Shown piece by piece: positions 11,301 to 30,288 of a stretch of 35,078 bases of DNA; the first letter of the stretch is position 1, and every line of letters starts with the position of its first letter. The notes beneath the pieces are model-generated. The model was not told the DNA's origin. It saw only the letters and a program-made list of their open reading frames with translations, and ran no database searches. This stretch comes from a virus. The stretch covers positions 1 to 35,078 of the IMG/VR virus record IMGVR_UViG_3300017714_003165; one strand, written 5' to 3'. The translations under genes were made by a program, and so were the position numbers.

Positions 11301-14300
11301 AAACTTAAAAATTAGTAAAACTAATCAAGTTAAGTTTTATCAAGGTATGGTAAAACAAAAAGGTACAACAAATGCTATTGATAGATTATTACGTTCAACA
11401 ACTGTAAGTACAGATCAAACATTTAACACTTACGAAGAATGGGCATTTAAAGTTGGAGACTTTGGATCAACAGCATTTAATCAACAAATAGAATTAAAAG
11501 TAAAAGCAAATGATATTGTTAGTGATCCACAAACATTTGAATTTTTATTACCATCAGATGATACAACAACATCAGGTTATGATAATGCAACTGATGATGT
11601 AATTACTATTGACATTGATGATACAACACGTTGGTTGAAAAGACCAAAAGGTGAAAAATCTTTGGCTAACTTATGGCCAACAACATCAACAGTTAATAGT
11701 GTTATTCCAACATCAGGGTATGTTCACTTTGACGACGCAACATATAAAGCATTAGATTCAACAGCACTAGCGAACGTATATGCAACAACATCAGCAAATG
11801 TTTCAATAGGCAGTACAGTTTGGGTAGCCAAAGATGTATTATCTGGTAAAGATTGGAATGCTTACAAGTTATATGATACTGGTACAACTATTGATAGTAT
11901 TGCAACCAGTGGTGATGCTAATACGGCTATGACTGTTACTGTATCTGGCACAGGTGCAGATATTGGTCAAGAAAAAGATTTAATACTACATAAAAAATAT
12001 GACGGCGATGGTAATTTAGAAATTGATCCTCAAACTTGGGGAACACATAAAATAAAACTTGAAACAACAACACCAACAGAACCAACTGCTACAGTTTCGT
12101 TTTCAAATATTGCAGGCTCAGGAGCAGACATTGCCGTTGCTAATATTAATGGAACAATTGCAACAGTAACAGTATCAGGTGGTGGTGCCGGCTTTGCAGA
12201 AGGTGACGTTATATCATTTAGTGGTAGCGGTGGAACTGGTGCGGCAATGACCGTTGAAAAAATTAATGGTGGTAGTGGTGCTAAAGCAACTGCAACTGTA
12301 AATGATACATTTCCAATTACTGCTATACAAGTTTTAGATCAAGGTTCAGGTTACAGTTCAGCAACTGTTAATATATCAGGTGGTGGTGGAACTGGTGCAA
12401 CAGGGTCGGCAACAATTGCCGGTGGTAAAGTAACAGGAATTACTTTAACAGCCGCTGGTACAGGATATACATATCAACCAACAGTTACTATCACAGGAGA
12501 TGGAACTGGTGCAACAGCCTTTGCAACACTAGGACAAGAAAAAGATGGATTAATTACTGCTATAACAATTAGTACAGGTGGAGTTGGTTATTCATCACCA
12601 CCAGTGATAAAAATTTCTGATAGTTCAGGTGTAGGTGCAACAGCAACTTGTACAATTGATGGAAGTGGTACTGTTAATGCAATTACTATAACTAATGCAG
12701 GTAGCGGATATACTTCTCCAACAGTTGCATTTACAGGAGCACTAGCAGGTAATACTGGAGGAACTGGATTAACGTTAGATAGTGGTGGCGACAATTACGC
12801 AGAAGGACCAGATAGTTATTCAGTTGTTGATTCATCTGGAACAGTAAAAACTGCAGGTACACATTATACACCAGCAACATTTTCATTTACTGGAGATGGT
12901 GCAAGTGGACGTTTAGGTGAAATTAAAGATTTATCAATTATTAATGGTGGAACAAATTATCAATCTCCAAGTATCAAAATTATAAACAATAGCGGATCAA
13001 CAGTAGCAACACTAACAACACCAGGAAATATTACTGTGTCCGGTGGAGTTATAACTGCAATTTCAGTTCCAACAGGTTTATGGAATCAAGGATTTAGTGC
13101 AGGAATTATTAGTACAGCAACAGGTAAAATAACAGTTGTAGATACTAAAACAAATTATACTATAGACTTATCTCCAAATTTAAGTAAGATACATATTTTA
13201 AATAATCTTACTGCAAATGTAACAACAGCATTTGATGGAGTAGTTACAGCCGTTATTGAAAAATGGGATGGTTCAACAGCAACAACATTATATACACTAA
13301 CAGGTTTAGGAACAACAGGAGTTAAAACAATTTCTCCGTCAGTAAATATTACAAACAACTCAAACGCAACAGTTAGAGCAAACGTTTCGGTAACATCAGC
13401 AACAGCTGGAGTTATGTCTTTATCATTAAATTATACTAAAAAAGAATATTCTGTTACTAAACCAGATGGTAATGCTGAATATATTACTACTAATAATTTA
13501 AGTGGTGGAATACAATTACTTGATTGGAAAGATGTAAGATTAAACAATGGTATTGCAACTGACAAAGCATACGTATCAACAAGTACTTCGACTACAATTA
13601 CAAACTTCTTAGCAGGCACAGGATTATCAAATAGTGCTTGGACAGAAGGCTCATTAATTTGGTTAGATGATGACTTTACTGGTAAGTGGGGAGTATATAG
13701 ATCTACTGCTAACGCAACAATAATATCTTCATATAATACAATACGTGGCAGTGAGCCTGCAAGTGTAAGTGCGGCAGGTACTACATGGATTTTACATAGT
13801 GGAGTAGATTATAGTGACGCAAGTCAAACTACTGCATCTTATTTTTCTAAAACAAAACGTAGACAAAAAGATAAGATTGATACAACACAATTTAACAAAA
13901 CATCATTATACGATGATAGAGATCATCAAATTGATGTAAACATGAATATTTACGATCCTGCAAAAGGTATATTACCTGCAAGTGCTGATCGTGAAATAAC
14001 ATATAAAACTGAAATAGATCCTGCAATATACAATAATCATTCTGATACAACACAAATTAGTGTAAACAATCCTTGGAAAAATGAATATGTAGGACAAGTT
14101 TGGTGGGATCAATCAACAACAAGATACATTGATTATGAAAGTCATGACAATGATTATAGAAGAACATATTGGGGCAGATTATTTACAGGATCAACAATTG
14201 ACATTTATGAATGGGTTAAATCATCACTAGCACCAGCATCATATGATGGAACTGGTACAGTTAAATCAACAACAAATTATGTTAGTGAAGTTACAGTTGA

Positions 14301-17071: not shown

Positions 17072-17079
17072 TATAAATA
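17072..17079 (+). promoter_or_regulatory. T4-type late promoter box (TATAAATA)
   Basis: Perfect eight-base match in the 41-base gap after the giant gene, 14 bases before the ATG of the next gene. The gap is AT-rich (tattatataagtataaatat). Confidence 0.65.
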
Positions 17080-17093
17080 TATATTAAGTTAAT

Positions 17094-17741
17094 ATGGAAA
17101 AGAACATGGAACATAACACAGATAAAGAGCAAAACGAAATTATGCCAAATGAAGGTGCAAAAGTTAAAATGCAAGGTCATTTGCTAATTCGCGATGCCGA
17201 AACTGGTGAAGAAATAGTTAACAAAAGAAATGCTATTCACTTTGGTAATATGGCGTTTGTGATTGCAAACGCAATGTCGTACTGGAAAACAGCTGATAAC
17301 GGCATATATCATATGGCTTTTGGTAATGGTGGATCAGATGTACTTAACACTGGTGAAATCAAATATAAAGCAACTAACACTGGTAATATTAAAGATGACT
17401 CGGCGGCTTTATACAATAAAACATATGAAAAAATTATTGGTAAAGATCCATCAACAGATACCAAAAACAATGTAGCAATTGTTACAAGTTCTAGTTCATA
17501 CACAGATTTAAAAATCACTTGTACACTTGATTTTGGTGAACCATCAAGTCAAACTACTTCAGACACAGCAACTTCAGATTCATCAACAGATTATATATTT
17601 GACGAATTGGGAATTTATGCGTATAATGTAAGTGGTATAGCAAGTGAATATCTATTAACACACGTTATATTTCATCCTGTGCAAAAGAGTTTAAATAGGG
17701 TGATTGAGATAGTGTATACTATCAGGGTACAACTGCAATAA
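17094..17741 (+). CDS. Tail-fibre or baseplate appendage protein, unassigned
   Basis: 215 residues. After a charged start (MEKNMEHNTDKEQNEIMPNEGAKVKMQGHL) comes a domain with KRNAIHFGNMAFVIANAMS and IYHMAFGNGG, and a beta-rich end (YIFDELGIYAY, VIEIVYTIRVQLQ). This organisation is familiar from small appendage proteins of marine myoviruses encoded after gp6, but I cannot match it to a specific T4 protein. Two starts are possible. 17094 lies only 14 bases from the late box and lacks a Shine-Dalgarno. 17106 (MEHNTDK) has a GGAAAAG upstream and may be the true start. It sits between the giant gene and the fibre gene at 17849, each with its own late promoter, so it was likely a separately regulated late product. 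Confidence 0.65.
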   Translation: MEKNMEHNTDKEQNEIMPNEGAKVKMQGHLLIRDAETGEEIVNKRNAIHFGNMAFVIANAMSYWKTADNGIYHMAFGNGGSDVLNTGEIKYKATNTGNIKDDSAALYNKTYEKIIGKDPSTDTKNNVAIVTSSSSYTDLKITCTLDFGEPSSQTTSDTATSDSSTDYIFDELGIYAYNVSGIASEYLLTHVIFHPVQKSLNRVIEIVYTIRVQLQ

Positions 17742-17775: not shown

Positions 17776-17783
17776 TATAAATA
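17776..17783 (+). promoter_or_regulatory. T4-type late promoter box (TATAAATA)
   Basis: Perfect match in the 107-base gap before the fibre gene, 65 bases upstream of its ATG; the leader carries AGGAG nine bases before the ATG. Nothing else is seen in the gap. Confidence 0.68.
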
Positions 17784-17848: not shown

Positions 17849-19171
17849 ATGCCATATACAGTAAACAACACAAGAGGAAGTATTGTTTCAACGGTAAATG
17901 ACGGTACTACTGCTTCTATAGGTGGTATTACTTTAATTGGTAAAAACTTCACTGGTTACGGTGAAACTATTGCCGAAGATTTTATAAAATTATTAGAAAA
18001 CAATGCAAATACATCAGCACCAGCAGATCCACAAGAAGGACAACTTTGGTGGGACACAACAAATCAATCTTTAAAAGCAAGACTTTCAGGTTCAACTGGT
18101 TGGCATCCATTAACAGTACACGTAGGTGCAACATATCCTCATGCAACTACAACAGGTTCTCTATGGTACAATACATCTACAAAACAATTAAATGTTAATG
18201 TAGATGGTACTGCAACAGGTTACAAACAATTTGCTTCAGCATCAGATAAATCATACACACAGGTTGTAGAATTAACTGCAACACACGTTGATGATGCATC
18301 AGCAAACAACAACGGTTACGTTGTTTCAGACAAAATTCAAGTAATTGCAGAAATTTTACAAACTAAAGCAGGTGCAGTTGAAGTAGCAAGAGTTGTTTCT
18401 CCAGCACACTTTAGATTTGCTGATCCAGGATCAGGCACAGGTGTAAAAGTTGAAAAAGCAATCTTTGATGGATTTACAGCGGCTATTACAGTAAGTTCAT
18501 CTACAAGTACACAAACAGGTACATTAATTCACGGAGTTAATACTTGGGACAGTTTACAATCAGAAGGTGTTAACGCAGACCAATTAGGTGGTCATAGTGC
18601 GGCGGCATTTTTAAGATTAACACAAACAAATCCACAAACAGTACAAGGACATATTGTTCCACCTGCACACGGTACAGCAGGTCAACCATCAGGAACACAA
18701 CAAGGTTCAGCATCAATTGATTTAGGTGGCGATGGTAAGTTTTTTAGAAACGTTTATGCACAGGCAATGATTGCACAATATGGTGATATAGCAGAACGTT
18801 ATGAAGCTGATGAAGAATATGATTGTGGAACAGTTGTTGCACTAGCAGGTGACAAAGAAGTAACACAAACAACAGAATTTAAAGATACAAAAGTATTTGG
18901 TGTAGTATCACAAAAACCAGGTCTAAAGTTAAATGCTTTAGCTGGAGATGATGCAACCCATCCATATATTGCTTATCAAGGTCGAGTGCTAACGAAAGTT
19001 ATCGGCTCAGTAAGTAAAGGTGATCGTATTGTTTCTAGTTCACTACCGGGCGTAGCACAACTAGTAGAAGACGAGAACAATGTTGATTACCGTGCGGTTA
19101 TTGGCCGCAGTCTTGTCGACAAGACTTCGGAAGAAGTCGAATTAATTCCAATTGCAATAGGAGTAAAATAA
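17849..19171 (+). CDS. Tail fibre-like structural protein with C-terminal G2/autoproteolytic-type domain
   Basis: 440 residues. The N-terminus (GGITLIGKNFTGYGETIAED, then LLENNANTSAPADPQEGQLWWDT) is a signature of tail fibre or appendage proteins in marine T4-like phages. The middle repeats a GSLWYNTSTKQLNV unit. A LGGHSAAAFLRLT segment precedes the C-terminal 150 residues, which have YGDIAERYEADEEYDCGTVV..., GVVSQKPG and the final strands VIGRSLVDKTSEEVELI. That end resembles the peptidase G2/intramolecular chaperone type of fibre C-terminus. No catalytic residues were assigned. AGGAG precedes the ATG. The stop overlaps the next start as TAATG. The last 150 bases are GC-richer than their surroundings and carry a palindrome, which may mark exchange of the tip. 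Confidence 0.78.
   Translation: MPYTVNNTRGSIVSTVNDGTTASIGGITLIGKNFTGYGETIAEDFIKLLENNANTSAPADPQEGQLWWDTTNQSLKARLSGSTGWHPLTVHVGATYPHATTTGSLWYNTSTKQLNVNVDGTATGYKQFASASDKSYTQVVELTATHVDDASANNNGYVVSDKIQVIAEILQTKAGAVEVARVVSPAHFRFADPGSGTGVKVEKAIFDGFTAAITVSSSTSTQTGTLIHGVNTWDSLQSEGVNADQLGGHSAAAFLRLTQTNPQTVQGHIVPPAHGTAGQPSGTQQGSASIDLGGDGKFFRNVYAQAMIAQYGDIAERYEADEEYDCGTVVALAGDKEVTQTTEFKDTKVFGVVSQKPGLKLNALAGDDATHPYIAYQGRVLTKVIGSVSKGDRIVSSSLPGVAQLVEDENNVDYRAVIGRSLVDKTSEEVELIPIAIGVK
19109..19126. repeat. 18-bp perfect palindrome in the fibre gene
   Basis: AGTCTTGTC followed at once by GACAAGACT, centred on a SalI-type GTCGAC. A second hairpin, GACTTC-GGAA-GAAGTC (19123-19138), overlaps it. Both lie in coding sequence for RSLVDKTSEEVE. 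Confidence 0.8.
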
Positions 19172-20109
19172 TGGCTTACCAACAAGGTGATACAATTACA
19201 GCAAGTGATTACAACACATTTGCTACAAACATTAACACAATTATTGGTACTGGCTCAACAGATAGTGGGTATGGTAATACAGAAATCGCGGCGGTTTCTG
19301 CAGGTGCTGTAATCACAGCGGCACAATGGAATGCATTGCTTTCTGCTTTACAGAAAGGTGCTAATCACCAAGGTACTACATTGACGAATGCGTCAAACAC
19401 GGTATCAGCAGGTGGTAACATTTTGCCATTATCTAATTTAGAGGCAGATATCACACTAATTACAAATAACAAAGCGACTGCAGATGCGGCGAATATGTCA
19501 ACTGACACTGGTGTAACTTCAACAAGAACATCAGCTTGGACAGGTACAGTACAACACATATTCACAGTAACATTTGCATCAGCTAACGCGGCTAGACACT
19601 TTTTTAATTCAGGCGGTGAAGTAAGATTTGCAGGATCACGTTCAGGTGGTTCTTCAACAGATCAAAACACTGATTGGACTAACTTATTGTCAGATGCGGC
19701 AACAGTAAAATTTGCAGAGACTTCAACTTCATACACTGGTTCAGGTGGAACAGCGGCTTCAGTAGGTTTTGATGATTTAACAACTTCAAATCAACAAATC
19801 TTTACAGCAACTGGCGATGGACAGTATACAGCGAATGATTGGACAATCGAAGCAAAAGCAGATGCGGCTTATGGCTCAGCAACTGTTTTAACTTTTACAG
19901 TTTACTTTAAAGATGATCATGCGGCGGCAACTGGTACTTACACTGGTGGCGGTTTAGGAACTGCTCCAAATGAAGGTAACGCTTGGACTGGCGCTGATTC
20001 AGTTGATGGAACTTTAACAAGCACAATTACTACTTTAAGAGCGGATGACGCCTCAAAAGTACAAGTTGCTAACCCAAGTTTCAGTACAACAACAGAAGTA
20101 AGTGCATAA
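19171..20109 (+). CDS. Tail appendage protein, Ala/Thr/Ser-rich
   Basis: 312 residues starting MAYQQGDTITASDYNTFATNIN, followed by AGAVITAAQWNALLSALQKGANHQG. Both phrases occur as helical starts of appendage proteins in T4-like marine phages, where the second half is beta-rich. No Cys and almost no Met after the start, in keeping with a secreted or virion surface protein. There is a central run with IFTVTFASANAARHFFNSGGEVRF, typical of fibre-associated beta domains. It is coupled to the fibre gene by TAATG and is the last gene of the late block. A terminator-like hairpin follows at 20136-20176. A structural role is likely; receptor binding is possible but unproven. Confidence 0.68.
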   Translation: MAYQQGDTITASDYNTFATNINTIIGTGSTDSGYGNTEIAAVSAGAVITAAQWNALLSALQKGANHQGTTLTNASNTVSAGGNILPLSNLEADITLITNNKATADAANMSTDTGVTSTRTSAWTGTVQHIFTVTFASANAARHFFNSGGEVRFAGSRSGGSSTDQNTDWTNLLSDAATVKFAETSTSYTGSGGTAASVGFDDLTTSNQQIFTATGDGQYTANDWTIEAKADAAYGSATVLTFTVYFKDDHAAATGTYTGGGLGTAPNEGNAWTGADSVDGTLTSTITTLRADDASKVQVANPSFSTTTEVSA

Positions 20110-20123
20110 TAATTAAAAAGTAT

Positions 20124-20152
20124 TTGACTTTTACGCCTCCGTTATGTATAAT
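20124..20152 (+). promoter_or_regulatory. Sigma70-type promoter of the sugar/radical SAM operon
   Basis: -35 TTGACT at 20124-20129, a 17-base spacer and -10 TATAAT at 20147-20152. Transcription should start near 20159, about 18 bases before the ATG at 20177. This is a host-type early promoter, unlike the TATAAATA boxes used upstream. Confidence 0.8.
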
Positions 20153-20176
20153 ATTATACATAAACGGAGGTTTTTT
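20136..20176 (+). terminator. Intrinsic terminator-like hairpin overlapping promoter and Shine-Dalgarno
   Basis: The arms CCTCCGTTATGTATAAT and ATTATACATAAACGGAGG are complementary over 17 base pairs with one unpaired A, and are followed by six T. Read from the upstream late genes this should end transcription. The right arm supplies the GGAGG (20166-20170) used by the next gene, so any read-through RNA would hide that ribosome-binding site. Confidence 0.72.
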
Positions 20177-20527
20177 ATGAATGACGAACGCTTACACAAG
20201 GCACTTGAATTTGCTAATTACAGGCAGACATTCTTTAATCAAAAGCAGATCCTGAAAAATAAAAGTCAGGCATTGCTATCATATTCAACAGATGGTGGTA
20301 CATTTAAAGTAACACAAGAGCTTATTGCTTTTGTTGGAACTTTTGTGCAACAAGGATATGAAGAAATGGTATTGTTAGATGTAAATGAAAATCCAATTAA
20401 AATAGAAGATTTAAAATCTTTTTTAACGGAAATTACATCAAGATATTTTGAAGTAACAAATGATTATCATAAACAATATAGTGAAATGCAAACAAAAAGA
20501 AGAACTGCAAAATTAGTAGAAGCATGA
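20177..20527 (+). CDS. Conserved phage protein of unknown function, first gene of the operon
   Basis: 116 residues starting MNDERLHKALEFANYRQTFFNQKQIL. An earlier in-frame ATG at 20144 overlaps the -10 box and has no ribosome-binding site. The ATG at 20177 has CGGAGG six bases upstream, so it is chosen. The protein is mostly helical, with a small GGTFKVTQELIAFV segment and a C-terminal coiled-looking part rich in Glu, Lys and Gln. Proteins of this pattern occur in other marine T4-like phages, as far as I recall, without known function. The stop overlaps the glycosyltransferase start as ATGA. Being first behind an early promoter, it is likely the best translated member of the operon. Confidence 0.75.
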   Translation: MNDERLHKALEFANYRQTFFNQKQILKNKSQALLSYSTDGGTFKVTQELIAFVGTFVQQGYEEMVLLDVNENPIKIEDLKSFLTEITSRYFEVTNDYHKQYSEMQTKRRTAKLVEA

Positions 20528-21408
20528 GCCGAGGTATAGTATTTTTTGCACATAACAATTCAGAAATTGATTATGGTAGTATAGCATTAGCAAACGCTTT
20601 AATGATTAAACATCATATGGGGCTTGACGCTATTACTTTGATTACTGACGAAGGTACTGTACGACATCTAAAAACACAATATGATCAAAGTTTAATTGAT
20701 AGTACTTTTGAAAATATAAAAATACAACCAAGAAAAAGAGTAGATAATAACAAACGTTATCGAGACACAAGACATACAGTAAACTTATTACAATTTTATA
20801 ATATTAATAGGTCAACAGTCTTTACACAATCTCCATATGATGAAACATTAGTTATTGATGTTGATTATTTAATTTGTAATAATACGTTAAATCAAATTTG
20901 GGGACATAAAGAAGACTTAATGATTAATAGAAAAAGTTATGATTTATTATCTGGAAGACGCTACCAAGAATTTGATAGAGTAGATGATTTTGGAATTGAT
21001 TTTTATTGGGCTACTGTATTTTTCTTTAGAAAAACAGAACAAACAGAAATATTTTTTAATCTATTAGAAGCTATTAAAGAAAATTATCCTTACTTTAAAA
21101 CACTTTATGGAATTAATACATATAACTTTAGAAATGATCATGCATTTAGTATTGCTGTTCATATGTTTAATGGTTTTGCAAAAAGTCGATTAGTAAAAAA
21201 CCTTCCAGTCGATTTTTTACAACACACATTAGATTATGATGAACTTCATAATATAAATTCAAAAGGATCACTATCATTTTTATTAGAAAAAATAAGTGAA
21301 CCTGGAAACTTTATTCCAGCACGTACTGATGGCGTTAATGTCCATGTAATGAACAAATATTCAATTGTACGACAGAGTAAAAAAATAGTGGAGATGTATA
21401 GTGCATAA
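20524..21408 (+). CDS. GT-A fold glycosyltransferase, family 8-like
   Basis: 294 residues. The N-terminal strand IVFFAHNNSEIDYGSIALANALMIK is the start of a nucleotide-sugar binding fold, and the metal-binding DxD motif is VIDVDYLI (Asp112, Asp114). The C-terminal half has the aromatic blocks FYWATVFFFRK and FRNDHAFSIAVHMF seen in GT8-like enzymes, in which a late His helps bind the metal (HVMNK here). It would transfer a sugar from a nucleotide donor in the cytoplasm; donor and acceptor are unknown. It overlaps its neighbours by 4 and 8 bases, so it is cotranslated. A second enzyme of the same type follows at 22125. Confidence 0.75.
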   Translation: MSRGIVFFAHNNSEIDYGSIALANALMIKHHMGLDAITLITDEGTVRHLKTQYDQSLIDSTFENIKIQPRKRVDNNKRYRDTRHTVNLLQFYNINRSTVFTQSPYDETLVIDVDYLICNNTLNQIWGHKEDLMINRKSYDLLSGRRYQEFDRVDDFGIDFYWATVFFFRKTEQTEIFFNLLEAIKENYPYFKTLYGINTYNFRNDHAFSIAVHMFNGFAKSRLVKNLPVDFLQHTLDYDELHNINSKGSLSFLLEKISEPGNFIPARTDGVNVHVMNKYSIVRQSKKIVEMYSA

Positions 21409-21955
21409 AATTTTATTAACAGACATAGACGGCGTAGTATTAAACTGGTCAGATCATTTTCAAAAATATTTAAAACAGTATTATCCAGAAGTATCGTTGT
21501 GGGATCCTACAACATTTGCACAATCAGATCAAACAGCAGATATTATAAAATATTATAATAATACTGCATGGATTGGATTCTTACCTCCTTTAAGAGACGC
21601 ACAAGAAATATTACCAAAGTTTAAACAAGAGGGTTGGGAAATTATTGCTTGTACATCAATGGGTGTAGATCAATATGCAAACGCATTACGAAAACAAAAT
21701 ATTGAAAGTTTATTCCCAGATGTTTTTGCAAGAATTGATATTATTCCATTTATGGAACCAAAAAACAAATGGCTATCACAATACAAAGGTAGTGGTGCTA
21801 TATGGGTAGAAGATAAGTGGACAAACGCAGTAGCCGGTGCTAATATTGGGCTTAAGACGTACTTTATGAAGCATAGTTACAATGCTATGTATGATGCAGA
21901 CAATATTGAAAAAGTTGATAATTGGATACAAATTTACAATAAGGTAAACAAATGA
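21401..21955 (+). CDS. HAD-family phosphatase-like hydrolase
   Basis: 184 residues from a GTG at 21401, with GGAG seven bases upstream; no ATG fits. Motif I is LLTDIDGVVL (nucleophile Asp8, acid/base Asp10), motif II is the CTS at residues 84-86, a Lys near 121-123 can serve as motif III, and motif IV is WVEDKW (Glu137, Asp138). This is a complete catalytic set for a phosphohydrolase. It lacks a large cap domain, so a small phosphorylated metabolite such as a sugar phosphate or nucleotide, or a nucleic acid end, are all possible. The position between two glycosyltransferases favours a sugar phosphate. Overlaps: 8 bases upstream, ATGA with the next gene. Confidence 0.8.
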   Translation: MHKILLTDIDGVVLNWSDHFQKYLKQYYPEVSLWDPTTFAQSDQTADIIKYYNNTAWIGFLPPLRDAQEILPKFKQEGWEIIACTSMGVDQYANALRKQNIESLFPDVFARIDIIPFMEPKNKWLSQYKGSGAIWVEDKWTNAVAGANIGLKTYFMKHSYNAMYDADNIEKVDNWIQIYNKVNK

Positions 21956-22128
21956 TATACGAAGTAATCTATATTCCAAGAATACACGATGAAGTGGCAA
22001 TTGCAAAATTTAATAATTTAGATGATGCAAAAAAGTTAATGCAAACAATAAAAGAAAATAGGCCAAAAGCATTCCCACATCATTATATTTGGGATAAAGA
22101 AAACGAAACGAAAGTTAATTACATATGA
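21952..22128 (+). CDS. Small protein of unknown function (58 residues)
   Basis: A short ORF that exactly fills the space between the HAD and glycosyltransferase genes, overlapping each by ATGA. It begins MIYEVIYIPRIHDEVAIAKF and ends HHYIWDKENETKVNYI. The pattern of strand (YEVIYIP), helix (LDDAKKLMQTIKEN) and strand (HHYIWDK) suggests a small alpha/beta fold. The exact coupling at both ends is the main support that it is real. No family is recognised. It has no Cys and no leader/core arrangement. Confidence 0.75.
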   Translation: MIYEVIYIPRIHDEVAIAKFNNLDDAKKLMQTIKENRPKAFPHHYIWDKENETKVNYI

Positions 22129-23000
22129 AACAAGGTTATTTGGTAATAGCACAAAATTCAAAAGATGCAGAGGGCAAATCTATTAATTATGTACGTATGG
22201 CTTATGCGTTAGCATTAAGTATTAAGCATACACAATCACAAATTAAAAATATATCTATTGCTGTTATTAATAAATCAGACGTACCAGAACATTATAAAGC
22301 AGTATTTGATGAAGTTATTGAATTACCTTTTGAAGATGATGCTCAAATGGCAGATTGGAAAATTAATAACAAATGGAAGTACTATCATTGCACACCATAT
22401 GAACAAACAGTAATACTAGATACTGATATGTTGTTTATGACTGACCTAAGTCATTGGTGGGAATATTTCACACATTGGGATATGATGGCAACAACTAACG
22501 TTCAAACATATCGCGGAGAAACAATAATTGATAACCATTACAGAAAAACATTTGGCCCAAATATGTTACCTAATGTTTACACAGCATTTTTCTATTTTAA
22601 TAAAAAATCAAATATGGTAAATGAATACTTTAGTGTAGTTGAAGATATATTTAGACGTTGGGAATATTACAGAGATACAGCATTAGTTTTACCTAAGCAA
22701 GAATTTTTAAGTGCTGACGTTGTATATGCCATGGCAATGAAAATGTTAGATATTGTTGAACAATCAACAAACCCAGCGGTAACTTGTCCAACATTTGTTC
22801 ATATGAAACCAAAATTACAAAATTGGAAATCTGGTTCAACAGAAGATTGGACAAAACATATTGGTGCTTATTTTACACCAGATTGTAGATTAAAAATTGG
22901 AAACTATCAACAAACATTACCAGTTCATTATGTAACAAAGAATTTTCTTACAGATGAAATTATAAAAAGATATGAGGAGCAAGTATATGTCAACGTCTAG
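22125..23000 (+). CDS. GT-A fold glycosyltransferase, second copy
   Basis: 291 residues. It starts with YLVIAQNSKDAEGKSINYVRMAYALALSIKH, followed by the DxD block TVILDTDMLF (Asp99, Asp101), which sits where it does in the first enzyme at 20524. The region MMATTNVQTYRG and NVYTAFFYFNKKS is a typical acceptor-side loop of these enzymes, and FVHMKPKLQNW supplies a late His. Identity between the two is low by eye, so they are old paralogues or separate acquisitions with likely different acceptors. Both appear catalytically complete. ATGA overlap with the small gene before; the next gene starts inside its last 14 bases. Confidence 0.78.
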   Translation: MKQGYLVIAQNSKDAEGKSINYVRMAYALALSIKHTQSQIKNISIAVINKSDVPEHYKAVFDEVIELPFEDDAQMADWKINNKWKYYHCTPYEQTVILDTDMLFMTDLSHWWEYFTHWDMMATTNVQTYRGETIIDNHYRKTFGPNMLPNVYTAFFYFNKKSNMVNEYFSVVEDIFRRWEYYRDTALVLPKQEFLSADVVYAMAMKMLDIVEQSTNPAVTCPTFVHMKPKLQNWKSGSTEDWTKHIGAYFTPDCRLKIGNYQQTLPVHYVTKNFLTDEIIKRYEEQVYVNV

Positions 23001-23601
23001 AATATTATATTATGATTTAGAAACAAAAGACATTATAAAAATTGTTCGTGAAGTTGATAACTCTGTTACACATCCATATTATGAAATTGAGTTTGAAGAT
23101 ATAAAAGAATTTATTGACGGTACAAAAGTACAATCACAATATTATATAGAATTAAATCCAAAAGATCCAAATGATTTTACAATTAAGAAAAAAGAAATAC
23201 ATTTGAATATAAGAGAAATTGATAAAACATTACATAAAATTAGACAAGGTACAGATGATGATTTAAGTTATGATATCAGAGTTGTACACAATAAACAAGA
23301 TAAAACAATTAGTTTTGAATTTAACCCTACATTAAAAGCATATATGGCAAGTAAGTATCAACTTACAGGGAAACAACAAAAGTTTACTAATCCAGAAATG
23401 CTTGTAATAAATGGAACAAGTATACTAAACTTCTTTATAACACAAACAGGTGATCCACATGATTTATTTGAAAGTTATTATGTACCTGTTGTACAGTTGC
23501 TTACACAAGATAAGTTAACAGCACCTTACAAAGGAGAGTTAAATACTTGTAACGTGTTTACACGAAGAATTTATGATGATTACTTAATGGTGGAGATATA
23601 A
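22987..23601 (+). CDS. Protein of unknown function in the glycosyltransferase operon
   Basis: 204 residues. The ATG at 22987 is preferred to one at 22972 because GAGGAG lies at 22974-22979, seven bases upstream of the later one. It begins MSTSRILYYDLETKDIIKIV. The sequence mixes beta segments (YYIELNPKD, IRVVHNKQDKTISFEFN) and ends with QLLTQDKLTAPYKGELN..VFTRRIYDDYLMVEI. There is no membrane segment, no recognised motif and a single Cys. It shares 14 bases with the preceding enzyme, so coexpression is certain to be tight. It may be a scaffold or a substrate of the pathway; nothing in the sequence decides. Confidence 0.7.
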   Translation: MSTSRILYYDLETKDIIKIVREVDNSVTHPYYEIEFEDIKEFIDGTKVQSQYYIELNPKDPNDFTIKKKEIHLNIREIDKTLHKIRQGTDDDLSYDIRVVHNKQDKTISFEFNPTLKAYMASKYQLTGKQQKFTNPEMLVINGTSILNFFITQTGDPHDLFESYYVPVVQLLTQDKLTAPYKGELNTCNVFTRRIYDDYLMVEI

Positions 23602-23604
23602 ACA

Positions 23605-24615
23605 ATGAGTGCTGATAAAAAAATAAAAATTGCAGATATTGATATATTTTATCTGTCTTATGATGAACCTAATTACAAAGAGCATTGGGCAGATATTGTA
23701 AACAAAGTGCCATGGGCAAAACACGTACACGGTGTAGAAGGATCAGATGCGGCACACAAAGCCTGTGCAAATAGAAGTGATACTGATAGATTTATTACTG
23801 TAGACGGTGATAATAAATTAGTCAATTGGGAAAAATTAATGGATTTAGAACTTGATTTTTCTGAATATGAATTAGAAAATTTAAAACATTCAGTAATATC
23901 ATTTACAGGTTATAATAATATCAATGGATTAATGTATGGTAATGGTGGTATTAAATGCTGGCCTAAACAAGCAGTACTTGATATGAAAACACACGAAGCC
24001 GCAGAATCAGAAGGATCAGCAGTAGATTTTTGTTGGGATATGAATTACATACAATTAAATGAATGCTTTTCACACGTATATAATAACGCAACACCTTATC
24101 AGGCATACAGAGCAGGGTTTAGAGAAGGTGTTAAAATGTCATTAGACAGAGGGTTTAAAGTTGATCCAGTTAACTTTGAAAAGAATATACATGACAAAAA
24201 CTATCACAGACTTTTAATTTGGGCAACTGTAGGACAAGATGTTGACAATGGATTATGGGCATTGTACGGAACAAGACTTGGTTGTTACATGACTAATTGT
24301 ACAGATTGGGATTTTGTTAATGTAAGAGATTTTGAATGGCACACTAAATTTTGGAACGAAACTGTAAAACCACAATTTGCAGGAGGTAACGAAAAGTGTA
24401 CACACGAAAATTACTCTTGGGATAAAGAAAAACTTTGGAATGAAACTGTCAGACTTGGTAAAGAGTTAAGAAACAAACTTGGAATGCAAATAGATGATCT
24501 AAGTGCTGAAGGTTCTGCATTCTTTAAAAAAGTATATTGGAATCCACCTCGCTCTGGAGCATTTGTAACAGAGAAAGGACAAGACGGAATTACTCGTTAT
24601 AAAGTGTTGAAATGA
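23605..24615 (+). CDS. Glycosyltransferase-like protein of marine phages
   Basis: 336 residues. The N-terminus, IDIFYLSYDEPNYKEHWADI then KHVHGVEGSDAAHKACA and DRFITVDGDNKL, is a pattern I recall from other T4-like marine phages. VDGDN (Asp67, Asp69) would be the DxD motif of a GT-A-like fold. A second conserved-looking block is SFTGYNNINGLMYGNGGIKCWPKQAVLDM (residues about 105-134). The long C-terminal part, rich in Trp (DWDFVNVRDFEWHTKFW), is not recognised. It has its own GGAG nine bases from the ATG, and its stop overlaps the radical SAM start as ATGA. Glycosyltransferase function is inferred from the motif; the fold is not proven. Confidence 0.65.
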   Translation: MSADKKIKIADIDIFYLSYDEPNYKEHWADIVNKVPWAKHVHGVEGSDAAHKACANRSDTDRFITVDGDNKLVNWEKLMDLELDFSEYELENLKHSVISFTGYNNINGLMYGNGGIKCWPKQAVLDMKTHEAAESEGSAVDFCWDMNYIQLNECFSHVYNNATPYQAYRAGFREGVKMSLDRGFKVDPVNFEKNIHDKNYHRLLIWATVGQDVDNGLWALYGTRLGCYMTNCTDWDFVNVRDFEWHTKFWNETVKPQFAGGNEKCTHENYSWDKEKLWNETVRLGKELRNKLGMQIDDLSAEGSAFFKKVYWNPPRSGAFVTEKGQDGITRYKVLK

Positions 24616-26000
24616 CAGATGAAGTACCTAAGATTAAACAAACCAGAGATGAACTAAATGCTGTATCTCCAAGTTTCTGCCTAGCCAAGTGGTATCAATC
24701 AACAATACACTTGCAATATGGACATACTCATAGTTGTCATCATCCTAGAACACACAAAGTACCTGTAGAAGAATTAAAAAATAATCCTAGTGCTTTACAC
24801 AATACAGAATATAAAAAATCACAAAGAGAATTAATGTTAAAAGGTGTACGTCCACCTGAATGTCAATATTGTTGGAACGTGGAAGACTTAGGTCCAGAAC
24901 ACTATAGTGATAGAAGTTCTAAGTCACACGAATATTGGGCTAAACCCTTTTTAAAAGAAACTTCACAAATGGTTGGTGTAGAAAATGTTAATCCAACTTA
25001 TGTTGAAGTTAGTTTTTCAAATGTATGTAACTTAAAATGTTCTTACTGTTCACCTGCATTTAGTAGTTCGTGGATGGAAGAAATTCAATCACAAGGTGCA
25101 TACCCAACTAGCGATAATTTTAATAATTTACATTGGCTTCGAAAAGAAGGCAAATTACCAATTCCACACCGTGAACATAATCCTTATGTTGACGCATTCT
25201 GGGAATGGTTTCCCGACCTGTACAAAAACCTCCAAGTTTTCAGAATCACAGGCGGGGAACCTCTTTTAACCAAAGACACATTTAAAGTTTTAGATTATAT
25301 TAATAATAATCCAAGACCAGAATTAGAACTAGCAATTAACTCTAATGGATGTGTTCCAGATAAACTTTTTGATCAATACATTGAAAAAATGAAACGTATC
25401 ACATTGGATAACAAAATTGGATTAACAAGATTATACACTAGTGTTGATACATTTGGTGAACAAGCAGAATATATTAGAGATGGATTAAACTTTAATCAAT
25501 GGTATGATAATATATGTCGTGTGCTAACAGAATTGCCAAAAACAAAAGTAACAATAATGTGTACAACTGGACTATTGAGTTTACCTAACTTTCATAAACT
25601 TGTTGATATGATTCATCCTTTAAAAAGAGAATTTTACAGTAATGAACGTAGAGTTCCAATAACGTTAGACACAGCAATACTAAGGCATCCTAGTTATCTA
25701 AGTGGTGTTGTTGCTGATCCTAGTTATTCTAAGATGCTTGATCCTTCTGTAGAAATTATGTTAGAAAATGCAGAAACACATGACAACGCATACAAAGGAT
25801 TCTTTGATTTTGAAATAGCCAAATTAAGAAGATTTCAAGAGTACATTGCCGCAGGACCTAATCCGCAAGAGAGATTAAATATACAACAAGTGCGAAAAGA
25901 TTTTGTATCATATATAGATGAATATGATAAAAGAAGAAATAAAGATTTCTGTAAAACTTTTCCAGAACTAGAAGAATTTTATAATTTGTGTAAACAGTAA
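24612..26000 (+). CDS. Radical SAM enzyme with N-terminal extra Cys set (twitch-like), copy 1
   Basis: 462 residues. CNLKCSYC (Cys139, Cys143, Cys146) is the CxxxCxxC site for the SAM-binding 4Fe-4S cluster, and RITGGEPLL near residue 212 is the GGE motif that holds SAM. Before the core lies a separate block with Cys23, Cys42 (HSCHHP), Cys84 and Cys87 (ECQYCW). That is four cysteines, enough for an auxiliary cluster placed N-terminally rather than in a C-terminal SPASM or twitch domain. This matches the N-terminal twitch radical SAM class as I recall it. The enzyme would generate a deoxyadenosyl radical on an unknown substrate. ATGA overlap with the gene before, one base from the next. The paralogue follows. 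Confidence 0.88.
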   Translation: MTDEVPKIKQTRDELNAVSPSFCLAKWYQSTIHLQYGHTHSCHHPRTHKVPVEELKNNPSALHNTEYKKSQRELMLKGVRPPECQYCWNVEDLGPEHYSDRSSKSHEYWAKPFLKETSQMVGVENVNPTYVEVSFSNVCNLKCSYCSPAFSSSWMEEIQSQGAYPTSDNFNNLHWLRKEGKLPIPHREHNPYVDAFWEWFPDLYKNLQVFRITGGEPLLTKDTFKVLDYINNNPRPELELAINSNGCVPDKLFDQYIEKMKRITLDNKIGLTRLYTSVDTFGEQAEYIRDGLNFNQWYDNICRVLTELPKTKVTIMCTTGLLSLPNFHKLVDMIHPLKREFYSNERRVPITLDTAILRHPSYLSGVVADPSYSKMLDPSVEIMLENAETHDNAYKGFFDFEIAKLRRFQEYIAAGPNPQERLNIQQVRKDFVSYIDEYDKRRNKDFCKTFPELEEFYNLCKQ

Positions 26001-26001
26001 T

Positions 26002-27522
26002 ATGACAAAGAAAAGAAAAACAGAAACATATCAACAATATAGAGATAGGGTAATCAACCCAATATCAACTTCATGGTGCGGTGCCAAATGGTACAATGCT
26101 ACTATATGGTTGAATAGTGGAACAACAGCAAGTTGTCATCACCCGCCTGCACATAAAATACCATTAGAAGAAGTGTTAGCAAACCCAAAAGCAATACATA
26201 ATACCAAATATAAAAAAATGGTACGTAAACAAATGCAATGTGGTGAGCGACCTAAAGAGTGTGAGTATTGTTGGAAAGTTGAAGACTTGGGTCCTAAAAA
26301 TGTTTCTGATAGAGTTTACAAAACAGTTATATACACAGAAGATCAAATTAAAGAAGCAAGTGAAATGGATTGGCAAGCAGATGTTAATTTAAAAACATTA
26401 GAAATTGCATTTGATGCCAACTGTAACTATGCTTGTTCATATTGTAATGCTAGTTTCTCAACACAATGGCAAAATGATATAAAGAAAAGCGGTGCTTATC
26501 AAAATTTAGTATCAGACGGTGCAAGAGCATTTCAACAAGATGGTAAATGGGCTATGCCGTACGGTAAAAAGAATGAAGGTAATCCTTACGTTGAAGCGTT
26601 CTTTAAATGGTGGGAATCAGATTTACAGTATACACTACAAGAATTAAGAGTAACAGGTGGTGAAGCAACAATGTCACAAGACTTCTGGCGTTTGCTAGAA
26701 TGGTGGCAAAGCAACAAAGATTGTGATGTAAGATTAGCAGTTAATTCTAATTTAGGAACTAAACCAGAACTAATAGATAGACTAGCACGAGAAAGTCACG
26801 CATTTAAAGATTTTGATTTATATACATCAAATGAATCATTTGGTTCTCATGCAGAGTACATACGTGATGGGTTAGTATGGGAAACTTGGTTAGGCAATAT
26901 TCATAAAATGATGGAACAAGGTAATGTACGTGAACTACATATGATGATGACCATTAATGCCATGTGCTTGTTTAGTATTACAGAATTTATGGACGAAATG
27001 ATTAAACTAAAAGAACGTTATGGACAATTTGCACCTGCAATGAGTTTTAATATATTACGTTTTCCTAGTTTCCAATCAGCATTAACATTACCACAAGATA
27101 TTAGAAAACGTTTAGCAGACAATTTAGAAAATTGGTTAGAAAATGTAGGTAAACCACATGAATTGTTTTTTGATATGGAAGAAGATGGTGTAAGTAGATT
27201 AATTAATTACTTGCGTGAAGTAGAAGTAGGCCATCAAGGTACATCTTCAATTGAATCACGTGAAAGAGATTTTAAATCATTTTATTCACAATATGACGTA
27301 AGAAGAAACAAATTATTTGAAAACACATTTCCAGAAGATGTTGTTAAATGGTATAAATCAATACCAGATACAAATTTACAAAAATTACAAAGTATAGTTG
27401 ATGGTGATTCAACTAAAGGTAATATGATGAAAAAAGAATTAGAACAACGAGCTAAAAAAGAAGGTTGGGTTATGAATCCGCAAGGCCCCAATCCAGGATC
27501 TCAAGAGTATAAAGAGGAGTAG
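26002..27522 (+). CDS. Radical SAM enzyme with N-terminal extra Cys set (twitch-like), copy 2
   Basis: 506 residues, a paralogue of the preceding gene. The radical SAM site is CNYACSYC (Cys141, Cys145, Cys148) and the GGE motif is RVTGGEATM near residue 216. The N-terminal set is Cys26, Cys45 (ASCHHP), Cys87 and Cys90 (ECEYCW), at the same spacing as copy 1, with one further Cys at 80. Both copies share HNT.YKK and YCW.VEDLGP phrases, so the arrangement was duplicated as a unit. The C-terminal 50 residues are extra and charged (VDGDSTKGNMMKKELEQ). Two intact, non-identical copies suggest either two steps of one pathway or a heteromer. Substrate unknown. Confidence 0.88.
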   Translation: MTKKRKTETYQQYRDRVINPISTSWCGAKWYNATIWLNSGTTASCHHPPAHKIPLEEVLANPKAIHNTKYKKMVRKQMQCGERPKECEYCWKVEDLGPKNVSDRVYKTVIYTEDQIKEASEMDWQADVNLKTLEIAFDANCNYACSYCNASFSTQWQNDIKKSGAYQNLVSDGARAFQQDGKWAMPYGKKNEGNPYVEAFFKWWESDLQYTLQELRVTGGEATMSQDFWRLLEWWQSNKDCDVRLAVNSNLGTKPELIDRLARESHAFKDFDLYTSNESFGSHAEYIRDGLVWETWLGNIHKMMEQGNVRELHMMMTINAMCLFSITEFMDEMIKLKERYGQFAPAMSFNILRFPSFQSALTLPQDIRKRLADNLENWLENVGKPHELFFDMEEDGVSRLINYLREVEVGHQGTSSIESRERDFKSFYSQYDVRRNKLFENTFPEDVVKWYKSIPDTNLQKLQSIVDGDSTKGNMMKKELEQRAKKEGWVMNPQGPNPGSQEYKEE

Positions 27523-27524
27523 TT

Positions 27525-27866
27525 ATGAAAAAAGGAAGGCCACCTTATCCTGACCCAAAAAGGGTAAAACAATTATCAAATTTAATTGACAAATATAGAA
27601 AAAATATATTGCTAACTTGTTTAACCGAAGGTATAACAAAAAAAGATATAATTGAATACAGTACAAGATTGTGTGCTATAAAACATTTAGATGACATATT
27701 AAACGATCCTTGTCCTATGAAACTGATTGCAGAAATAGAAGATTTGGCTGAATATAAAAGACTTTGTGTACATCAACAAAAACAAGTTGATAAAATAAAG
27801 TACGGATCTGATTATGTTGATATCGAAGAATTATATGGGCATGGGTGGACGCAAGGGTTAACCTAA
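27525..27866 (+). CDS. Small helical protein of unknown function
   Basis: 113 residues, starting MKKGRPPYPDPKRVKQLSNLIDKY. GAGGAG lies five bases before the ATG. Mostly helical, with four Cys (TCLTEG, RLCAIK, DPCPMK, RLCVHQ) that are spaced too widely for a classical zinc finger but could bind metal. The RPPYPDP start is proline-rich. It directly follows the radical SAM pair and overlaps the next start as TAATG, so an accessory role in the same pathway is possible. No family recognised. Confidence 0.7.
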   Translation: MKKGRPPYPDPKRVKQLSNLIDKYRKNILLTCLTEGITKKDIIEYSTRLCAIKHLDDILNDPCPMKLIAEIEDLAEYKRLCVHQQKQVDKIKYGSDYVDIEELYGHGWTQGLT

Positions 27867-28498
27867 TGCAAAATCTTGCAATATGTGGTTGCAGTTGGGC
27901 AAGTGATTTTGATAGTTCAACGTATTCAAATAAAGAAGTTACAAATAATTCTCAATTATGGCAATACAATTTAGGATACAATCCTAAAATATATGCTCGT
28001 CCAGGATCATCTAATTTAAAAATATACATACAGGTCCAAGAAGCAATTGAAGAAGGATTTGATATATGTATGGTCTTTTTAACATCACCAACAAGGATTA
28101 ATATTGCCTGGAAAGAATCAGACGGCTGGAATTTTGAAAGCAAGTTTAGTTGGGGAAGAACTGATGTTGTTAATAAACACGCACCAAAAGAAACACAAGA
28201 ATATATAGCCAAATATTATAATGAAGATTTAGAAATACTGAACAGTTTTGTAATCACAGAAGCAATATATTGGAAACTAAAACAAACAGGAAAACCGTTT
28301 TATATTTTTACAAATGCGTTCACAGATTATATTCACAAAGACTGGAAAATATTTAATCAACCAAATGTTATTCGTAATGGACCTTATGAATTTATTAAAC
28401 AACAAGAATGTCAAGGCGATGATATTCCCAATCATCTTTCGTTAATTGGCCAGCAAGGTGCTAAAGATTTAATCCTAAAGTGTGTGGATAACAACTAA
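27866..28498 (+). CDS. SGNH/GDSL hydrolase-like protein
   Basis: 210 residues from the ATG at 27866 (TAATG overlap, AAGGG eight bases upstream); a GTG at 27845 is less likely. Block I is ICGCSWASDF with the nucleophile Ser10. ARPGSSN gives the block II Gly (47) and an Asn (50). LTSPTRIN follows at 72-79. Near the end DDIPNHLS supplies the Asp and His190 of the usual DxxH, here spaced DxxxH. The family includes esterases and acetyl transferases that act on glycans. As the last gene of the sugar/radical SAM operon, a deacylase of a sugar or conjugate fits. No signal peptide, so it acts in the cytoplasm or on the virion. Confidence 0.72.
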   Translation: MQNLAICGCSWASDFDSSTYSNKEVTNNSQLWQYNLGYNPKIYARPGSSNLKIYIQVQEAIEEGFDICMVFLTSPTRINIAWKESDGWNFESKFSWGRTDVVNKHAPKETQEYIAKYYNEDLEILNSFVITEAIYWKLKQTGKPFYIFTNAFTDYIHKDWKIFNQPNVIRNGPYEFIKQQECQGDDIPNHLSLIGQQGAKDLILKCVDNN

Positions 28499-28535: not shown

Positions 28536-28566
28536 AATGACTAATCTTTATATAAAGGAGAATCGT

Positions 28567-29226
28567 ATGTTTAATTTTAAAAACATAGACAAGAGTATGC
28601 TTTGGAAGTTGGTGTTATTACACGTTGTAGTAATTACAGTTTCAAATGCTCTTGTGGCAATACCGGTACAGATACTTGGTATTAAACTTACATGGGCGGC
28701 ATTTACATTTCCGCTAGTTATATTAGCAACTGATTTAACTATTAGGTTGTTAGGAAAACACATAGCAAGATCAACAATTGCATTAGCATATCCATTTGCA
28801 ATTATAGGATCTATTTTGGTTGTATTGGCAGAAGGCGCCCCACAATCAGTAGCATTAAGAATTGGATTTGCAAGTGCAACAGCATACGCAGTAGGTACAA
28901 TGCTTGACGTATATGTATTCCAAGTATTAAGAGAAAGAATGTCTCAATGGTGGATAGCACCAGCATTATCAACAGTTGTAGCTAATATTATTGATACATA
29001 CACATTCTTTTACGTTGCATTCAACAACTCAGCTGATGAGTATATGGCGGCAAACTGGATAGAAATTGCAGGGTCACAAGTTGTAATTAAAATCGCAGTA
29101 GGTTTAATTATATTCTTACCGGCTTATGGAGTACTACTTAGATATCTATCTACTAGAATAAAAGTTAGCGAATCAGTGCAATCATCATTTAAAAATGCTG
29201 GTTCTGATTTGAAAAAAATTAAGTAG
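28567..29226 (+). CDS. YhhQ/VUT-family transporter (queuosine precursor uptake)
   Basis: 219 residues from the ATG at 28567, which has AAGGAG six bases upstream; an upstream ATG at 28537 lacks one. Six hydrophobic segments can be picked out, with the family's charged signatures between them: an early VVVITVSNALVAIPVQILG, LTWAAFTFPLVILATDLTIRLLG, and AYAVGTMLDVYVFQVLRE followed by WWIAPALSTVVANIIDTYTFFYVAF. The bacterial family (COG1738) imports the queuosine precursors preQ0/preQ1. In a phage it could supply 7-deazaguanine for tRNA or DNA modification. It has a private promoter and no operon partner. Confidence 0.85.
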   Translation: MFNFKNIDKSMLWKLVLLHVVVITVSNALVAIPVQILGIKLTWAAFTFPLVILATDLTIRLLGKHIARSTIALAYPFAIIGSILVVLAEGAPQSVALRIGFASATAYAVGTMLDVYVFQVLRERMSQWWIAPALSTVVANIIDTYTFFYVAFNNSADEYMAANWIEIAGSQVVIKIAVGLIIFLPAYGVLLRYLSTRIKVSESVQSSFKNAGSDLKKIK

Positions 29227-29660: not shown

Positions 29661-29688
29661 TTGACAGATTTCTATATTGTGTTATAGT
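29661..29688 (+). promoter_or_regulatory. Sigma70-type promoter of the lipoprotein gene
   Basis: Perfect -35 TTGACA (29661-29666), a 16-base spacer and -10 TATAGT (29683-29688). It begins right after the terminator, and the expected start near 29695 gives a leader of about 18 bases. Confidence 0.78.
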
Positions 29689-29712
29689 AGTAAGAATATG
29701 AAGAGGTATAAA

Positions 29713-30288
29713 ATGTATAAAATAAAAAAACTAATAGCAAGTTTATTTGCTGTTATATTTCTAACTAATTGTACGGCTACAACAGGACAAACTGTTTCTA
29801 AAACAGACACTTACACATTAGGTGGTGCTGTTATTGGTGGTGTAATTGGTAATCAATTTGGTAGTGGAAGTGGTAAAGATGCCGCAACTATTTTGGGTGT
29901 AATACTTGGTTCGCATTGGGGACGTAACGTAGGAGCTCAATTAGATCATTATGAAACTATCAAACACGAAAAAGTTGCCTATAGAGCATTTGAATATGCT
30001 AAAGACGGTGTCCCTGTTACTTGGGAAAATCCAAACACTGGCCATAGAGGTGGTGTAATGGTAACTGAAACTTACTACATACAAAACGGACAAATACCTT
30101 GTCGTTCTTTTATCCAAGAAGTACAAATTGGTGCAAGAATGGAACAAAGTGAAGGTGTTGCTTGTAGAACAGCTTCAGGTAAATGGGAACTTATGAAAGA
30201 CCCTAAAGTTAAAATTGAAAATGGTATGCAGGTTACTAACGACAAAGGTCAATATATGCTGACACCAGTTGGTGTTGGTTGGAATTAA
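29713..30288 (+). CDS. 17 kDa surface-antigen-like outer-membrane lipoprotein
   Basis: 191 residues. The ATG at 29713 has AAGAGG six bases upstream; earlier TTG and ATG codons in frame overlap the -10 or lack a site. A Lys-rich start and a hydrophobic core lead to the lipobox LTNC with Cys20 (Asn at -1 is unusual). Residues 35-70 form a glycine zipper (GGAVIGGVIGNQFGSGSG, then GVILGSHWGRNVG). The rest (WENPNTGHRGG, then CRSFIQEVQIG and GVACRTASGKWEL) follows the C-terminal domain of the Rickettsiales 17 kDa antigen family. It should sit in the outer membrane of the infected cell. Capture from an alphaproteobacterial host is inferred. The stop overlaps the opposing gp5-like gene by four bases (TTAA). 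Confidence 0.85.
   Translation: MYKIKKLIASLFAVIFLTNCTATTGQTVSKTDTYTLGGAVIGGVIGNQFGSGSGKDAATILGVILGSHWGRNVGAQLDHYETIKHEKVAYRAFEYAKDGVPVTWENPNTGHRGGVMVTETYYIQNGQIPCRSFIQEVQIGARMEQSEGVACRTASGKWELMKDPKVKIENGMQVTNDKGQYMLTPVGVGWN

Follow-up and report, generated by a model that had tools for sequence, protein, structure and literature searches.

The 35,078-base virus record IMGVR_UViG_3300017714_003165 of IMG/VR, taken here as a whole (the window), is a fragment of a T4-like jumbo myophage in which a cassette of glycosyltransferases (GTs) and radical S-adenosylmethionine (SAM) enzymes lies directly downstream of fibre-region genes. The enzymes of this cassette, encoded at 20177-28498, suggest that a glycan is assembled and then edited by radical chemistry; its acceptor and sugar, the radical reaction and the timing we infer. 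Our tentative reading, held at a little short of even confidence, is that the glycan is assembled and edited on the phage's own tail-fibre proteins. On this view the operon would serve to build glycans within a host-recognition island of a jumbo phage.

The baseplate wedge protein encoded in the window is closest to those of the jumbo myophages Atu_ph07, SCTP-2 and PA5oct, and the region 5347-17052 encodes a virion structural protein of 3901 amino acids (aa) that matches phrog_10938, 'virion structural protein'. The cassette itself consists of eleven open reading frames (ORFs), all open and co-directional, that overlap by 1-14 bases (counting internal starts) or are separated by gaps of 1-3 bases, as the original prediction, made from the sequence alone, had described. 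Neither a DNA-level search with the window nor tblastn with rSAM1, p336 and GT2 (Table 1) matched any of 50,697 phage records, so that this collection yielded no cultured phage carrying the cassette.

Conserved linkage to structural genes

The cassette belongs to a longer block of conserved gene order, w215-w440-w312 followed by c127-GT1-GT2-p336 and often by a radical SAM gene; the core from w312 to rSAM was defined across more than 100 contigs. We counted its members in two sets of 80 viral loci, one anchored on p336 and one on rSAM1; all such counts are lower bounds, as many contigs end early. The p336-anchored loci contained GT1 (75/80), c127 (71/80), w312 (64/80), GT2 (61/80), w440 (57/80), w215 (48/80) and a radical SAM gene (40/80), with c127 normally sitting between w312 and GT1. 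Among the rSAM1-anchored loci, 54 encoded GT1, GT2 and p336 together, and in 43 of those the genes were colinear on one strand. Together with the near-constant presence of GT1 beside p336, this agrees with the earlier proposal that the set forms a unit.

Two patterns had been named in advance as signs against such a unit, and neither was clear in these loci. The first was scattered genes with independent losses: on a GT1 tree of 56 loci, the presence of radical SAM genes changes twice, compared to a minimum of 12 and a mean of 16 changes in 200 shuffles. The second was radical SAM genes with no GT neighbours. Of 26 radical SAM loci without the pair of GT8-type genes, 16 hold p336 or other GTs, and the substitute sets include a GT7-type pair, enzymes of the GT2 type and a methyltransferase. 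No GT was recognised in the remaining 10, three of which carry a sugar epimerase and RfbC. Extended islands hold further sugar enzymes, including epimerase, RfbC, carbamoyltransferase and nucleotidyltransferase. Pairwise distances among c127, GT1, GT2 and p336 are strongly correlated (r = 0.84-0.94), the distances of rSAM1 correlate with theirs at 0.70-0.79, and shared whole-genome descent explains part of these correlations.

The neighbours that define this linkage are structural. w440 matches virion and tail-fibre PHROGs, and its homologue in PA5oct has a record stating detection in virions by mass spectrometry. w312, directly upstream of the cassette, is rich in Ser and Thr (27%, and a mean of 27% over 43 copies).

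Enzymes of the cassette and candidate acceptors

The original prediction had described a set of genes with the parts to build and edit a sugar, and the enzyme families and folds support this description. The identities of the HAD phosphatase, both radical SAM enzymes, GT1, GT2 and p336 hold up; the SGNH hydrolase was called from conserved residues, with no Pfam family matching at E <= 1.

No Pfam family matched GT1 or GT2. The GT2 profile matches glycogenin over 103 residues (E ~2e-5), and its structure model (mean predicted local distance difference test score, pLDDT, 94) matches GlyE, LARGE1, glycogenin, UGGT and LgtC over its full length (Z 13-15). Agreement is closest with GlyE, LARGE1 and glycogenin (Z 15.2; 3.6-4.2 A over 211-237 residues), while identity to GT8 enzymes such as glycogenin, GlyE, LgtC and LARGE1 is ~10-14%. 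GT2 is thus modelled with a GT8 fold and a DxD-type metal site, in which the second Asp is invariant and the first residue is mostly D or E among relatives whose identities fall to ~30%. GT1, a GT2 paralogue that shares its protein cluster, has an invariant Asp112-x-Asp114 (40 sequences).

The third GT, p336, has an invariant D67-x-D69 (DGD) and a conserved stretch, NGLxYGNGG. In its model (pLDDT 87), residues 6-163 match several GT-A enzymes at Z 8-9, among them viral GT-A proteins, including the PBCV-1 capsid GT and mimivirus R699, and also COLGALT1/LH3 (Z ~8-9). Nucleotidyltransferases score close behind, so that the DGD motif and NGLxYGNGG are needed to call p336 a glycosyltransferase. PDB searches with profiles of p336 and c127 returned chance matches only.

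Both radical SAM enzymes clear by a wide margin the curated 170-bit cut-off of NF033640 (N_Twi_rSAM), a subfamily model without assigned function, and both keep the CxxxCxxC motif and the N-terminal twitch cysteines. The invariant residues are C139xxxC143xxC146 with C23, C42, C84 and C87 in rSAM1 (43 sequences) and C141xxxC145xxC148 with C26, C45, C87 and C90 in rSAM2 (35 sequences); the two window proteins are 38% identical.

The remaining genes are more restricted or less easily read. The HAD gene was found only in close relatives (L003, L004, L006 and L011), and p113 in L003, L004, L005 and L011. The 58-aa ORF o58 is also limited to close relatives and is missing from L003 and L011; it is doubtful as a gene, because HAD abuts GT2 without it there. 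The p209 cluster occurs in 31 loci and, among those listed, sits between GT2 and p336. In the SGNH-like protein, Gly15, Ser17, Gly54, Asn57 and His197 are retained in five copies, with the SGNH blocks I (Ser), II (Gly) and III (Asn) and the C-terminal His assigned by eye; its homologue occurs in few loci, and different SGNH-like proteins are found repeatedly in related islands. A possible homology of c127 to the N-terminal part of a cupin protein of phage Phosso received no support (hhalign probability 2%).

These enzymes lead us to a model in which the GT8-type pair GT1 and GT2, together with the GT-A enzyme p336, would build a short glycan in the cytoplasm from host nucleotide sugars. The twitch radical SAM enzymes might then alter it by epimerisation, dehydrogenation, deoxygenation or a similar reaction, and the SGNH and HAD proteins may act as optional finishing enzymes. 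The likeliest acceptor would be one of the phage's fibre-region proteins from the genes directly before the cassette, either w312 or w440, and c127 might serve as an adaptor. We favour a fibre protein because of the linkage to structural genes, the Ser/Thr-rich w312, the resemblance of the GTs to protein-directed enzymes, and the outcome of family searches, which recognised no membrane protein, flippase, polymerase or lipid-carrier enzyme in the cassette.

Table 1. Positions of the genes and control elements discussed. Unprefixed coordinates refer to the window; L and G prefixes denote other loci and jumbo-phage contigs.
Feature	Coordinates	Strand	Remarks
T4-type late promoter box TATAAATA	17072..17079	+	upstream of w215
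w215, structural-region protein	17094..17741	+	first gene of conserved block; phrog_11259
T4-type late promoter box TATAAATA	17776..17783	+	upstream of w440; retained in several relatives
w440, tail-fibre-like structural protein	17849..19171	+	
w312, structural-region protein	19171..20109	+	Cys-free
Sigma-70-like promoter of cassette	20124..20152	+	TTGACT-17-TATAAT; site 10-12 of 12 in relatives
Hairpin	20135..20171	+	-10 hexamer at tip; Shine-Dalgarno GGAGG in 3' arm; then T6, then start codon ATG
c127, small conserved protein	20177..20527	+	longest frame from 20144
GT1, glycosyltransferase	20524..21408	+	GT2 paralogue
HAD-type phosphatase, NT5C-like	21401..21955	+	PF06941, 27.2 bits (cut-off 24.8); phrog_420
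o58, 58-aa ORF	21952..22128	+	
GT2, GT8-type glycosyltransferase	22125..23000	+	profile match and modelled fold
p209	22987..23601	+	longest frame from 22972
p336, GT-A-fold glycosyltransferase	23605..24615	+	modelled; helical C-terminal part
rSAM1, radical SAM enzyme with N-terminal twitch domain	24612..26000	+	NF033640, 343.7 bits
rSAM2, paralogous twitch radical SAM enzyme	26002..27522	+	NF033640, 293.1 bits
p113	27525..27866	+	
SGNH-hydrolase-like protein	27866..28498	+	longest frame from 27845; GCSW, GSSN, late His197
(CHxS)3-RGRR tail proteins	L083:17679-18599; L084:18449-19339; L244:521-1081; L245:3294-3830		also at least 80 IMG/VR loci from L246
Iron-sulfur assembly genes (SufC and SufE, or IscU)	G001:C1:70850-71521, 146261-146617; G002:C1:89446-90117, 173218-173544; G004:C1:102348-102725		

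A promoter within a covarying hairpin

The host-type promoter attributed to the cassette exists and is conserved: a sigma-70-like site matching 10-12 of 12 positions lies at a similar distance before c127 in all 11 closest relatives with a readable start. Promoter-like sites overall show no excess over chance in the AT-rich window (71 found, 77 expected). This promoter is embedded in a hairpin (Table 1) whose fold is unusually stable (z = -4.8), and whose arms covary across 14 loci. Pairing of each arm with its own partner averages -19.7 kcal/mol, compared to -10.6 kcal/mol for swapped arms, and 0/20,000 permutations equalled the observed value, which rejects a chance palindrome. Some relatives (L031, L034, L037 and L043) have the hairpin but lack a clear promoter. 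The promoter-hairpin may be a general device for silencing read-through transcripts. RNA started at the cassette promoter would begin inside the 3' arm of the hairpin, leaving the ribosome-binding site exposed. In late read-through RNA the hairpin would hide this site, and may also terminate transcription, so that only promoter-started RNA would be translated well.

T4-type late boxes precede w215 and w440, and none was present before the cassette. The proposal that the cassette is under early-type control can be retained in part. Control separate from the late genes is supported by the conserved promoter and the covarying hairpin; early timing is not proved, since 9 of the 11 closest relatives checked have sigma-70-like sites (10-12 of 12) ahead of the structural gene w215 as well. 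For the same reason, and because the GTs are nearly inseparable from structural genes, the control of the cassette does not serve as an argument against virion glycosylation, as it had been used.

In five freshwater loci (L018, L023, L027, L028 and L076) the sigma-70 site is replaced by another box, CTAAATAC, with the conserved form ATC(C/T)ATCTAAATAC, located 11-23 bases before c127. Its spacing to the c127 start codon is unsuitable for a late promoter.

Related loci, rival functions and known systems

A radical SAM profile search of 84,980 genomes yielded 78 loci, mostly from Bdellovibrionota-type lineages. Phage contigs binned with bacteria were set aside, leaving 71 loci, in which neighbour families were named by eye from their sequences, except for an S26-like protein. 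Among the loci of apparent phage origin, L113 and L115, filed under a Neomarinimicrobiota metagenome-assembled genome, contain the complete structural-glycan block of the phages and appear to be jumbo phage DNA assigned to the wrong bin. In 41/71 loci, the radical SAM homologue has a GT, a Wzm/Wzt-type polysaccharide ABC exporter, a carbamoyltransferase or DegT as a neighbour. A PqqD-like gene is present in 13, a second PqqD-like family in 5 and an S74 fibre-chaperone-like protein in 14. In eight Bacteriovoracales loci (L132, L133, L134, L136, L141, L146, L153 and L157) the radical SAM homologue occurs with a PqqD-like protein and a small S74-like protein; some of these loci add a prepilin-like repeat protein, and they often lie inside a polysaccharide-type cluster.

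The polysaccharide-type neighbours of the bacterial homologues are what might be expected if the cassette remodels the host surface, with the GTs extending or altering host lipopolysaccharide or another envelope glycan early in infection, the radical SAM enzymes editing it, and competing phages being excluded as a result. The cassette's own sigma-70-like promoter, insulated by the covarying hairpin, is in keeping with such a role, as is the resemblance of GT2 to LgtC (Z 13.8). Those who described the cluster of pelagimyophages also interpret it as changing the host surface (PMC7029224). Strict linkage to structural genes gets no direct explanation from such a role, enzymes of membrane transfer and lipid carriage were not recognised in the cassette, and the sites before w215 make the timing uncertain. 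We regard this function as a serious possibility that is nonetheless somewhat doubtful.

Modification of fibre proteins gains support from two recurrences. Two relatives carry p336 next to a radical SAM gene at a second site as well, and in a Bacteriovoracaceae contig a p336 homologue lies 5 bases before the radical SAM homologue. In rhizobial jumbo phages the same slot holds radical SAM genes beside a protein with a modification-like tail. Several points weigh the other way. The bacterial radical SAM homologues are often found in polysaccharide-export-type loci, and lipopolysaccharide is the acceptor for some GT8 enzymes, LgtC among them. Co-adaptation to the receptor is another way to account for the linkage to fibre genes, and the promoter-hairpin suggests expression apart from the late genes. 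A radical SAM gene is seen in only half of the p336-anchored loci, so the radical step would be optional. c127 and p209 are without known function, and we found no virion proteome or glycan data for any cassette-bearing phage.

The tail in question belongs to a wider family. SPASM radical SAM genes occupy the slot in Phosso and in the Agrobacterium phage Atu_ph07, and a protein that is only 42% identical between the two phages ends in CHTSCHASCHSSRSRR and CHSSCHASCHNSRSRR; the tail protein of Atu_ph07 is gp170. The same tail is carried on unrelated-looking bodies in a Burkholderia and a Pseudomonas jumbo phage, where the radical SAM arrays (L244 and L245) are interleaved with 2-oxoglutarate (2OG)-Fe(II) oxygenases and L245 adds a cupin gene. 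The near-invariant tail, (C-H-x-S)3-R-G-R-R, ends exactly at the stop codon, and we found at least 97 such tails in at least 80 IMG/VR loci. Among the matches listed, tail positions left free by the scan pattern are also conserved, and a related SPASM radical SAM gene lies just upstream of the tail protein in 43/46 testable loci. No paper turned up when the literature was searched for four forms of the tail. From its sequence and neighbours, the (CHxS)3-RGRR protein is likely a phage protein matured by a radical SAM enzyme, and the tail is apparently widespread in viruses and undescribed.

By analogy, the twitch enzymes of the window might modify a peptide or protein directly, as in the maturation of ribosomally synthesized and post-translationally modified peptides, with the GTs glycosylating the product. 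The Phosso and Atu_ph07 genes in the same slot are consistent with this idea, and so are the PqqD-like homologues at bacterial loci. We consider it improbable: no comparable Cys/His tail occurs in any twitch radical SAM locus examined, no PqqD-like gene was recognised in the window, and the Phosso enzymes are of the SPASM type and weakly related.

Phage GTs can glycosylate DNA, and hypermodification, in which the GTs and radical SAM enzymes would glycosylate and edit modified bases of the phage DNA, had been left open in the original prediction. A gene just downstream of the cassette, at 28537-29226, resembles the preQ0/preQ1 transporter QueT (TIGR00697, 107 bits against 51), which might hint at base modification. 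It has its own promoter-like site and was not found in L003, L004 and L011, and we therefore rejected it as a member of the cassette. No thymidylate-synthase/hydroxymethylase family scored above cut-off in four large, possibly incomplete relatives, in which controls were positive; the GT8 and GT-A folds match protein and glycan GTs, and the linkage is to tail genes. We find no support for DNA modification and judge it highly improbable. Further downstream, between the cassette and a gp5-like hub gene, 29677-30288 encodes a protein with a 17-kDa outer-membrane-antigen/glycine-zipper domain (PF16998, PF05433) that is retained in L003, L004 and L011.

The four large relatives are the contigs around L011, L015, L070 and L063 (328, 243, 457 and 353 kb), which have 18, 19, 12 and 4 radical SAM profile matches, with some genes split into pieces that count separately. 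Each has a single GT8 pair, at the cassette site. SufC and SufE score above curated cut-offs in two contigs and IscU does so in another. In G001 and G002, a second p336-like gene precedes a radical SAM array. The second site in two relatives (L366:3843-12373 and L367:294-18620) encodes a p336-like GT and a c17 protein, then arrays of radical SAM genes, about a dozen at most.

The host recognition cluster described in pelagimyophages (PMC7029224) already combines radical SAM cassettes with GT8 enzymes and tail fibres, and 'undescribed system' is thus too strong a term for the present locus. The cluster of pelagimyophages and cyanomyophages shares with ours its place, a variable island in the structural region after a large baseplate-associated gene. 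Here, the cassette lies between the 3901-aa structural protein with the fibre genes and gp5, and its 3' genes vary in relatives. The cluster is bounded by VrlC and gp14. The match of the 3901-aa protein is labelled 'virion structural protein', not VrlC, and gp14 was not seen in the window. The window differs in coming from a jumbo phage related to PA5oct and Atu_ph07, and adds, relative to the passages compared, a fixed core, w312-c127-GT1-GT2-p336-rSAM, and a promoter in a covarying hairpin. The defined core, the p336-radical SAM pair in phage contigs and a bacterial contig, and the promoter-hairpin are additions to the known clusters.

A precedent for phage-encoded GTs that act on virion proteins comes from mycobacteriophages (Freeman et al. 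2023, cited by PMC12619734). That system concerns other phages and another host, and the cited account describes no radical SAM enzyme; the acceptor in the window is predicted. A marine T4-like virus known from its environmental genome was reported to have 12 radical SAM genes along with iron-sulfur assembly genes (PMC5332604), and the relatives of the window likewise encode SufC and SufE or IscU. That paper draws no link between radical SAM genes and glycosyltransferases or a fibre locus; the word 'glycosyltransferase' is not in its text.

It is conceivable, though unlikely, that dedicated radical SAM enzymes of jumbo phages, aided by phage iron-sulfur assembly proteins, edit glycans on the phages' own tail fibres under a hairpin-hidden promoter that silences read-through, and so represent an undescribed class of virion modification. 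Jumbo phages of marine and fresh waters have many radical SAM genes, and this locus gives a fixed enzyme set in conserved order beside fibre genes and a recurring pair of p336 and a radical SAM gene, found in a bacterial contig too, together with a defined promoter-hairpin switch. It thereby offers a testable prediction, that a radical-edited glycan would be present on the fibre proteins or on the host envelope.

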